Part shown: positions 29,454 to 31,602 of the stretch, one piece after another
Position numbering within the stretch: the stretch's first letter is position 1
Layout of the letters: the number at the start of each line of letters is the position of its first letter
DNA from: an uncultured Bacteroidales bacterium
GTDB taxonomy: Bacteria; Bacteroidota; Bacteroidia; Bacteroidales; Bacteroidaceae
Reading direction: 5' to 3'
Assembly: GCA_902786925.1 (NCBI GenBank)
Contig: CADAEK010000001.1
Coordinates: 62,001 to 126,000, forward strand
DNA: 64,000 nucleotides
Position numbers and translations under genes: made by a program
The notes under the pieces: model-generated
What the model was told of the DNA's origin: nothing
Databases searched by the model: none
The model's input: only the letters and a program-made list of their open reading frames with translations

Positions 29454-29492
29454 CCTTCGTCAAATCATTCAAAAACCTAAAAATTGAAGCAT

Positions 29493-30131
29493 ATGAAAAA
29501 GTTCTACTTCCTTTTCAACATTATCGCAGTGCTGAGCCTCTGCGCAGTGTTTACCTCATGCACCGAAGACGAGGACGTTGTTGAAGCCAGAGTGCTCTCC
29601 GGTGAATGGACCGGCGATTGGAAGATGTATTACGAAACCAATCGGGGACGCACCTTCTACGCTGATTATACAGACATCGTGTTCTATCGCAGCGGCAGCT
29701 ACACCAACCATGGTTATGGATATCAAGTGGACTTCTATTCCGCAGGGCCCTATACCTCTATCTATAGCCGCTTCACATGGAGCATCGAGAATGGTACTAT
29801 TTACATCGATTATCCCGACGATCACCGCTACGACACAACTATCTATGAATACCACTTGGATGACAGATACTTCTCTGGCAATTTAGGCGACAGCTATCTG
29901 CATTTCAAGATGAGCAAGATTGCCGGCTTCGACTGGAGCTACTACTACACCTATGATGACTACATCTATGACTATTACTACTGGCCTAACTCTTCCTACA
30001 TATGGGATGATGGTGACTACTACTATTGGAGCAAGACACGCAAGAACAAGGGCACCACACCATCCACATCAACAGCAGAAGACAACGAGCCCGAACAAAT
30101 CGTCAAGATTGGCAGCAACCTAGGCAATTAG
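29493..30131 (+). CDS. Tyrosine- and aspartate-rich lipoprotein of unknown function
   Basis: A 212-residue predicted lipoprotein (signal ending VFTSC). After the lipobox comes an acidic start (TEDEDVVEARVLSGEWTGDW) that resembles small lipocalin-like Bacteroidales lipoproteins. Tyr and Asp are then very frequent: residues 145-182 contain runs such as YYYTYDDYIYDYYYW. The Ser/Thr-rich tail carries no clear anchor. I do not recognise a specific family. An in-frame ATG three codons earlier (29484) is possible. Monocistronic, closed by the terminator at 30151-30184. Confidence 0.75.
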   Translation: MKKFYFLFNIIAVLSLCAVFTSCTEDEDVVEARVLSGEWTGDWKMYYETNRGRTFYADYTDIVFYRSGSYTNHGYGYQVDFYSAGPYTSIYSRFTWSIENGTIYIDYPDDHRYDTTIYEYHLDDRYFSGNLGDSYLHFKMSKIAGFDWSYYYTYDDYIYDYYYWPNSSYIWDDGDYYYWSKTRKNKGTTPSTSTAEDNEPEQIVKIGSNLGN

Positions 30132-30235: not shown

Positions 30236-31315
30236 TTATCTTTCACGTTCTAATTTCTTCAGGTGGCAGAGCATCAAGCCGCCCTCCTCATCACGGAGGT
30301 GCATGCCCCCGCCTTCACAATAACGGAACATCTTGCAGTCGGCGCAATCGCCCTTCCGCATCCAGTCACGGTTGCGATAGTTTTGGAATCCATTTTCCCA
30401 CACGTCCCAAAAGCGGTCTTTGTAGATATTCCCTTGGTAATATTTGCCCCGAATGCTGGTGCAGGCCGAGATGCTGCCATCAATCAGCACGGAGGCCACA
30501 CTGATGCCTGCCGCACACTGATAGAGGTGGTCGCGAACCTTACCTTCATACGCACCCAAGAAACCTTCACAGGCAAAACTGGCATGTATCTTTCCTTCCT
30601 GGCGACAGGCAATGATAAAGTCCAACACCTCACGGAGCTTCCCATCAGGCAGTTGCAAGTCAGGATGCAGCTTTGCTCTACCTGCAGGGAAGATGGTGAA
30701 GAGTCGCCACTGGCGCACTCCTGCCTCATAAAGCATATCCTTCAATTGTGGCAGATACTGCACGTTGCGGTTGTTCACACAAGTTACTACATCCCATACC
30801 ACTCGGTTTTGCCCGGCCAAGAGGCGGATAGCACGCAGGGCATTTTTGAAACTGCTCTCATGACCGCGCATCCAGTTGTGGTCTTCCTCATTACCATCGA
30901 GGCTCACGGCCACGCTACGCAGTCCGGCCGCATACAACTGTCTGAAACGTTCCTCCGTGAAGAGCATACCATTGGTGACCATACCCCAAGGATACTCGCG
31001 GCGGTAAAGTGCCCGACCTACTTCCTCGAGGTCGTTTCTCATCAAGGGCTCACCTCCCGACAGAATTACCATCACCTCATGCGGATTCACATGAGGTGTC
31101 ACTTCCTCGTCTATCACACGGAGGAAGTCTTCAGCAGGCATGTCGGGCATCAAGCCTTCCATCTTGCAGTCGCTACCACAATGGCGACACTTCAGGTTGC
31201 AGCGCAACGTGCACTCCCAAAAGAGCTGCCGCAATGGATGCAACTGCTTCATGTTCTGCCGGAGCCGACGTTCGAGTTCAAGACCGACACGCTGTTTCAA
31301 TGATAAAGAGACCAT
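30236..31315 (-). CDS. Radical SAM/SPASM enzyme of the rSAM/lipoprotein system (TIGR04133-like)
   Basis: A 359-residue enzyme that should split S-adenosylmethionine with a [4Fe-4S] cluster to modify a peptide. The cluster motif CNLKCRHC is at residues 39-46 and the SAM-binding GGEP in ILSGGEPLMR. The C-terminal SPASM region carries further cysteines for auxiliary clusters (LIDGSISACTSI, GDCADCKMFRYCEGGG and a final Cys). From memory this matches the Bacteroidales family named for pairing with a lipoprotein. The gene just upstream, 17 bp away and in the same operon, encodes a small lipoprotein that is the likely substrate. The modification is unknown. Confidence 0.88.
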   Translation of the reverse strand: MVSLSLKQRVGLELERRLRQNMKQLHPLRQLFWECTLRCNLKCRHCGSDCKMEGLMPDMPAEDFLRVIDEEVTPHVNPHEVMVILSGGEPLMRNDLEEVGRALYRREYPWGMVTNGMLFTEERFRQLYAAGLRSVAVSLDGNEEDHNWMRGHESSFKNALRAIRLLAGQNRVVWDVVTCVNNRNVQYLPQLKDMLYEAGVRQWRLFTIFPAGRAKLHPDLQLPDGKLREVLDFIIACRQEGKIHASFACEGFLGAYEGKVRDHLYQCAAGISVASVLIDGSISACTSIRGKYYQGNIYKDRFWDVWENGFQNYRNRDWMRKGDCADCKMFRYCEGGGMHLRDEEGGLMLCHLKKLERER

Positions 31316-31332
31316 GGTTCAGGCGGCTCTCC

Positions 31333-31602
31333 TCATTTGGTGCGGAGGATAAAACCCGGATCCACTGTCTCAAATTGAACAGGAGCGACGCCATACATCA
31401 AACGCATCTCTTTGCCGTCTTTGGGAAAGCGTTGCTGGGCCGAGTCCGGCAATTCAGTGCCTTCGTTTGGTGCACCATACATCACAACAGGAGGGTCCAC
31501 CGCACGTTTGGACGTGCCACATCCAGCAAGTCCTAACAAGGCGATAGCAGCCGAAAGCACCTTGCTGGTGCCCTGCAGCCAATGTTTGCGCAATGCCTTC
31601 AT
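31333..31602 (-). CDS. Small lipoprotein, likely substrate of the radical SAM enzyme
   Basis: An 89-residue lipoprotein (lipobox LAGC, Cys28). The mature part is only about 60 residues and carries two similar motifs, MYGAP (41-45) and MYGVAP (69-74). Lipoproteins paired with this radical SAM family usually carry a YGxP-type motif close to the lipid anchor, so these tyrosine/proline sites are the best candidates for modification. Known partners as I remember them are longer (about 140 residues, with an extra beta domain), so this is a short version. The gene starts 6 bp after the rmlA stop codon and ends 17 bp before the enzyme gene. Confidence 0.8.
   Translation of the reverse strand: MKALRKHWLQGTSKVLSAAIALLGLAGCGTSKRAVDPPVVMYGAPNEGTELPDSAQQRFPKDGKEMRLMYGVAPVQFETVDPGFILRTK

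Follow-up and report, generated by a model that had tools for sequence, protein, structure and literature searches.

What does a radical SAM/SPASM enzyme of the family TIGR04133 do to the lipoprotein encoded beside it? TIGR04133 enzymes and their lipoprotein partners form a common gene pair in gut and rumen bacteria, which has been named, and for which we found no chemistry in the literature. As the first-pass annotation of this locus had supposed, the families are known by name only, and our search found no paper naming either TIGR04133 or TIGR04134. We investigated one such pair, from a gut (rumen) bacterium, within a stretch of 64,000 nucleotides (hereafter, the window). The features of the pair are as follows.

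30236-31315, minus strand: TIGR04133 radical SAM/SPASM gene, 359 aa, predicted modifier of the lipoprotein YG sites
30266-30517, minus strand: SPASM region of the enzyme (C267, C285, C324, C327, C333, C350)
31178-31201, minus strand: radical SAM cluster motif CxxxCxxC (C39, C43, C46), invariant in 171 TIGR04133 sequences
31316-31332, minus strand: gap of 17 bp between the lipoprotein stop and the enzyme start
31333-31602, minus strand: prelipoprotein gene (open reading frame), 89 aa, predicted substrate
31381-31398, minus strand: motif 2, MYGVAP, residues 69-74, predicted splice site (family-wide xYGxP)
31468-31482, minus strand: motif 1, MYGAP, residues 41-45, predicted splice site (family-wide xYGxP)
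31519-31521, minus strand: Cys28, predicted lipid-bearing residue, with the lipobox LAGC in the sequence
31522-31602, minus strand: signal peptide (residues 1-27); it contains ALLGL, an element typical of partners of TIGR04133
30157-30179, found on the plus strand by consensus scan only: terminator-like hairpin, in the interval that separates the enzyme gene from a convergent gene

Both genes, their 17 bp spacing, and both MYG motifs were found at the minus-strand positions and residues first reported for them. The gene rfbA lies directly upstream of the lipoprotein gene (from 31609 on, minus strand), and downstream of the enzyme gene is the convergent gene (29484-30131, plus strand), from which it is separated by the terminator-like hairpin. 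The product of this convergent gene is a tyrosine-rich lipoprotein, whose similarities to Lipocalin_4 (18.6 bits) and BSAP-5i immunity proteins (18.5 bits, against a cut-off of 150) are both sub-threshold.

The signal peptide of the window lipoprotein ends in LLGLAG|C28, a lipobox spotted by eye, and leaves a mature protein of 62 residues, CGTSKRAVDPPVVMYGAPNEGTELPDSAQQRFPKDGKEMRLMYGVAPVQFETVDPGFILRTK. Both tyrosines of this mature sequence sit within MYG, and two MYG motifs would arise by chance with p = 5e-6 (200,000 shuffles of the 62 residues). No family match over cut-off was obtained for the lipoprotein from NCBIfam, including TIGR04134, or from Pfam. Against TIGR04134 it scored 12.2 bits (E 0.14; cut-off 39.8), over positions 2-37 only of the 150 in the profile, and we therefore rejected it as a member of that family; a TIGR04134 profile search of the window's genome likewise gave nothing better than weak, partial matches to other long frames. 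The aligned piece extends from the signal peptide as far as the first MYGAP, and is the part that matters, although it falls short of the model.

The partner had initially been described as unusually short, which did not hold, as mature parts of 22 and 23 residues occur at other loci (L175, with CHTRPKTKYGPPSDYRSSEKIR, and L172, respectively). Small size was accordingly discarded as a special feature, shorter partners being encoded next to other TIGR04133 enzymes. Nor is the doubled motif constant, even within the genus. One genus relative (L017) retains the second copy only, several others have MYS in place of the second MYG, and other TIGR04133 partners contain one, three or more copies.

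The enzyme matches TIGR04133 over the entire profile (574 bits, positions 1-350 of 350), above the curated cut-off of 425, and by its sequence is a full member of this family; Pfam Radical_SAM and SPASM were also both over cut-off. Of the two profile matches anticipated in the first-pass annotation, that of the SPASM-type radical SAM enzyme was thus confirmed, and that of the lipoprotein was not. We additionally compared the enzyme with the splicease model TIGR04103, which presumably corresponds to IPR026482 and hence represents the PlpX family. The window enzyme scored 111.8 bits on this model, far below its cut-off of 725, and slightly higher on two heme-pathway models, AhbD (125.8) and NirJ (118.4), and on TIGR04053 (123.4).

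An alignment of 171 distinct TIGR04133 sequences identified C50, D175, C179, R204, C249 and H339 as invariant or near-invariant. The first of these, four residues past CxxxCxxC, never varies within TIGR04133, and PlpX-type enzymes do not have it. In the window enzyme the usual SPASM Cx3C cysteine is Gly337, a position occupied by G, S or A in 171/171 TIGR04133 sequences and by C in 11/11 splicease-type sequences. These family-specific invariants, with the missing SPASM cysteine, suggest that TIGR04133 differs from splicease-type enzymes in its auxiliary clusters and perhaps in its reaction. We noted that C249 and H339, invariant in a SPASM region that lacks the Cx3C cysteine, might include an unusual auxiliary-cluster ligand. 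The AlphaFold2 model of the enzyme (pLDDT 90.8) has a SPASM-type barrel, and no RRE-like N-terminal domain was found in it. Its nearest matches in a fold search were SuiB (Z 26.2) and anSME (26.0), reflecting the general SPASM fold, and such fold matches do not reveal which reaction is catalysed. A sequence search of the PDB returned no structure of the PlpX type.

We investigated the distribution of the pair across 195 TIGR04133 loci, drawn from the genus, the order and a named genome collection. The enzyme was present in 26/45 genomes of the genus, and in 94/393 genomes and 64/207 genera sampled across its order within Bacteroidota. Within the genus, a relative of the lipoprotein was found in 22/26 enzyme-bearing genomes versus 0/19 genomes without the enzyme (Fisher 4e-9), supporting the earlier pairing of TIGR04133 enzyme and lipoprotein.

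Around 155 distinct partner proteins were recovered, and these have no common scaffold, the sole element shared between them being xYGxP. The adjacent partners have several architectures: lipoproteins whose mature part is short, flexible and disordered, and contains between one and four YG sites; longer proteins built on a carboxypeptidase-regulatory-like domain, mostly with a single YGxP close to the lipid cysteine (TIGR04134); and lipoproteins with coiled coils. TIGR04134 was matched at E <= 0.01 by 37/43 long partners versus 15/50 short ones. In the unbiased comparison, which sets lipoprotein-like frames adjacent to the enzyme gene against distant ones of the same loci (another count took only partners picked for YG), YGx(1-2)P was found in 109/128 adjacent versus 4/48 distant frames, with p 1e-21, although the loci are related and p-values such as this and that for the genus overstate independence. 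The signal element LG[FLVIMTW] within nine residues of the cysteine was similarly concentrated, in 85/128 adjacent lipoproteins versus 3/48 distant ones.

The fixed positions of the motif are the tyrosine, the glycine and usually a later proline only. Across 183 sites, the residue before the tyrosine was M at 70, V at 28, E at 27, C at 22, K at 21, L at 8 and A at 5, with one D and one N; the residue after the glycine was mostly small or hydrophobic, and could itself be glycine. The suggestion that the repeated MYG is the likely modification site is upheld by xYGxP being the one element common to the ~155 partners, and we consider it highly probable that YG is the site modified.

The motif also occurs in partners of other kinds. 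The L007 partner is anchored by a transmembrane segment, with no lipobox and the motif VYGPPP; the partners at L157 and L222 are secreted, encoded downstream of the enzyme, and contain QYGAP. At L180 (minus strand; 2210-2662 in enzyme orientation) we observed a signal-less, proline- and glutamate-rich protein adjoining the TIGR04133 enzyme, whose three IDDVEC[IV]YGPPP repeats make it a possible soluble multi-core substrate. As the motif is kept at these four loci without a lipid anchor, the constant element is the motif and not the lipid, and lipidation was rejected as an essential feature. At eight TIGR04133 loci (L089, L090, L092, L105, L220, L221, L223 and L224) no YGxP partner was found in the stretch examined, and their substrate may lie elsewhere or have been lost. 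We also observed a TIGR04133 enzyme with a TIGR04134 lipoprotein (CYGMPENYYSIKG) on plasmid pTS1 of Treponema saccharophilum (L208, 3622-5098), a spirochaete, so that the pair occurs in another phylum.

To which radical SAM enzymes is TIGR04133 related? In plasmid records, the top match of the window enzyme outside its own family was an unnamed Agathobacter enzyme (147 bits), followed by DUF1843-associated, GDL-motif and nif11-class-3 enzymes (107-119 bits), and at lower scores by TIGR04053 (about 100), MftC (85-89) and NirJ (85-87). In a tree with PqqE, MftC, NirJ, TIGR04053, TIGR04347 and AhbD-like enzymes as outgroups, TIGR04133 and the splicease-type enzymes formed one group with support of 98/96, in a part of the tree that is selected, as the relatives in it were mostly retrieved with the TIGR04103 model. 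A first tree without the AhbD-like enzymes gave this grouping 90/83, and the branch order within the splicease-type group was weak. Eight residues (G47, S48, H146, T178, W203, G251, E257 and C267) are common to TIGR04133 and splicease-type enzymes, and mostly missing in the outgroups. Reciprocally, TIGR04133 ranks as the third or fourth best NCBIfam model for YG-associated enzymes of the TIGR04103/TIGR03913 type. An order-wide search with TIGR04103 yielded few relatives.

Several of these relatives are themselves encoded beside proteins with YG-like sequences. A Nif11 precursor of Nostoc, beside a nif11-class-3 enzyme and a small protein of 71 aa, ends in GGRGSIALYGLPPELF (LYGLPPELF). At L144, in a genome from the same family as the window, the gene beside a TIGR04103-like radical SAM gene (L144:1468-2919) encodes a protein of 214 aa (L144:2955-3599), which has no Pfam or NCBIfam match and, with six copies of KYGYP repeated in the C-terminal part, looks like a multi-core precursor; the L144 and Agathobacter enzymes both have C50 and C249 in common with TIGR04133. 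Homologous proteins of 158-191 aa were observed upstream of TIGR04103-like enzymes at L141:941-1417, L142:2619-3116 and L226:832-1407. The L142 partner contains LYGTPP, and the C termini of the three are LYMAHSK in L141, LYGTPPVPLYQAPSK in L142 and LYMAKPK in L226, indicating that methionine as well as glycine is allowed after the tyrosine. Finally, DUF1843 peptides were observed beside GDL-motif radical SAM enzymes on Azospirillum and Aureibacter plasmids (L207, L210 and L212), with LYG, PYG, MYM, LYA or MYA near the N terminus, which suggests from sequence that DUF1843 is a substrate family.

Natural PlpXY sites are MYG and LYG, and PIRPLYGLPI, one of the PlpXY splice tags, is itself a YGxP sequence (PMC10533398). 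The two MYG motifs of the window lipoprotein match this known splicease cutting site, and the pair thus probably cuts tyrosine pieces from the protein backbone. A residue before the tyrosine that is so varied, and a glycine allowed after the glycine, likewise fit X-Tyr-Gly splicing. We propose that the pair would be a two-gene module that modifies a lipoprotein. In the prelipoprotein, a conserved signal peptide would precede a mature part that is short and flexible and contains two Met-Tyr-Gly sites, and the cytosolic TIGR04133 enzyme would bind it before export, probably via the signal peptide and the motif. Radical SAM chemistry would then cut tyramine (C8H9NO, ~135.07 Da) from each X-Tyr-Gly and rejoin the backbone, in the manner of PlpX, leaving Met41 and Met69 as alpha-keto-beta-amino residues (ketoamides), with a total loss of ~270.14 Da. 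Export would come next, then lipidation on Cys28 and anchoring in the envelope, where the ketoamides could, as electrophiles, capture nucleophiles such as protease active sites. For modification prior to lipidation there is a direct precedent in the DAG-RiPPs made by MNIO enzymes (PMC12636315).

The concrete chemistry, tyramine excision at XYG, is an unproven proposal drawn from the relatedness of the enzymes and the match between the motifs. We incline, by a modest degree, to the view that tyramine is removed from both MYG sites ahead of export, so that the protein anchored by its lipid would contain two ketoamides. The broader reading, in which the TIGR04133 family as a whole is a branch of lipoprotein spliceases, with a remodelled SPASM region, in this Bacteroidota order and in Treponema, that place reactive ketoamides in the backbone of envelope lipoproteins, we judge to be evenly poised. 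Some observations speak against tyramine excision: in CYGTP partners, found in part of the family, residue X would be the very cysteine that is lipidated, making an awkward substrate; MYS is present at one site in some genus relatives; and several loci have no YG neighbour.

The same YGxP sites might instead undergo another radical reaction, such as epimerisation, desaturation or oxidation at the tyrosine or glycine, or linkage of the tyrosine ring to a neighbouring atom, an alternative that we hold to be possible but somewhat doubtful. The motif evidence names a site and not a reaction; TIGR04133 has a variant SPASM region, with its own unique invariants C50, D175, C179, C249 and H339; and the closest solved folds span several chemistries (SuiB, anSME, ChlB, SkfB and, more distantly, the epimerase EpeE). 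Nevertheless, KYGGP is the sole site in the L166 and L170 partners, which excludes a side-chain-carbon link to the post-glycine residue there, and led us to reject such a cross-link as a family-wide rule. The residue before the tyrosine is so varied that its side chain can hardly participate, and the conservation of Tyr-Gly, with the LYGLPP of the nif11-class precursor, points to a reaction at X-Tyr-Gly.

It is improbable, in our view, that the lipoprotein is a carrier or anchor presenting another peptide, or that the enzyme acts on a small molecule. Such a role would be in keeping with the small companion proteins that often accompany radical SAM maturases, with the eight enzyme genes for which the DNA examined shows no YG protein, and with the heme-pathway enzymes among the relatives, but the partners have no common fold with which to serve as a carrier, sharing YGxP only. 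Two or three tandem partner genes, or repeated motifs, at several loci are as expected of substrates; and the closest relatives do not agree in the gene beyond the lipoprotein, which is rfbA in the window and encodes a lipoprotein of ~310 aa in others, so that no third conserved component is seen. That an ordinary lipoprotein gene lies beside the radical SAM gene by chance, the two being unrelated, is scarcely credible: although the lipoprotein has no family match over cut-off and rfbA on its other side is unrelated, the genus co-occurrence contradicts this, as does the presence of the enzyme in 64 of the 207 sampled genera with the partner motif conserved.

For TIGR04133 and its lipoprotein partners, the comparison of motifs and the enzyme tree together give one sharp prediction, the loss of 135.07 Da per YG site, in substrates that are very small (mature parts of 22-62 residues) and easy to study. 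If it is true, common gut bacteria bear ketone-bearing backbone residues on lipid-anchored proteins, and this built-in electrophile might inhibit proteases or make covalent bonds at the surface of the cell. These would be, to our knowledge, the first membrane-anchored spliced proteins.

Finally, we compared the window pair with known systems. PlpX is a SPASM radical SAM enzyme of IPR026482 (PMC11002830), several splices per precursor are on record for such enzymes (PMC10373908), and protease inhibition has been reported for spliceotides (PMC11117315). The window enzyme is likewise a radical SAM/SPASM protein in the same branch of the tree, and its partner similarly contains X-Tyr-Gly (MYGAP and MYGVAP), at more than one site per precursor and in a YGxP setting that splicease sites sometimes share. 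In contrast, the enzyme misses the TIGR04103 model and has Gly337 in place of one cysteine of the seven-cysteine SPASM motif of splicease-type sequences; no PlpY-like gene adjoins the window pair, nor is there a Nif11 or NHLP leader; and the predicted product stays in the membrane as a lipoprotein, whereas theirs is a peptide that is released. The missed model, the cysteine gap and the lack of a PlpY neighbour indicate that the window enzyme is not PlpX-type by membership, and our claim, made by analogy, is that it may work like a PlpX-type splicease. The splicease survey of Scott et al. 2022 (Chem 8:2659), as described in PMC10533398, covers 939 predicted systems, and TIGR04133 may already be included there or in an early radical SAM/peptide survey.

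The GDL-motif/DUF1843 maturases (TIGR03913), a sister of the PlpX type, have partners with LYG, PYG, MYM or LYA near the N terminus, but these partners are soluble and of ~54-70 aa, the glycine is not strict, and the enzymes are longer (~475-520 aa). TIGR04133 and TIGR04134 themselves form another close system: the window has a full TIGR04133 enzyme, an adjacent lipoprotein, and YGxP after the lipid cysteine. Its lipoprotein differs in scoring below the TIGR04134 cut-off, in having no carboxypeptidase-regulatory-like domain, and in its two motif copies on a short, probably flexible tail.

The lipid-anchored RiPP-like product foreseen in the first-pass annotation as a rare case has, since 2025, a precedent from a different enzyme class. 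DAG-RiPPs are RiPP-lipoprotein hybrids made by MNIO enzymes in Bacteroidota and other phyla (PMC12636315, a 2025 preprint), in which a cytosolic enzyme recognises a short motif and the normal lipoprotein pathway adds the lipid; their N termini vary between SPII signals, SPI signals and large proteins (PMC12636315). The window lipoprotein shares with them an SPII signal peptide and lipobox (LLGLAG|C28), with lipidation demonstrated for DAG-RiPPs and predicted from the lipobox here. The enzymes differ, the DAG-RiPP enzyme being an MNIO that acts on a C-terminal CPACGMG motif and the window enzyme a radical SAM/SPASM protein predicted to act on internal YG. If our reading is true, TIGR04133 would provide a second enzyme class for RiPP-lipoprotein hybrids, and thus the radical SAM counterpart of the DAG-RiPPs.
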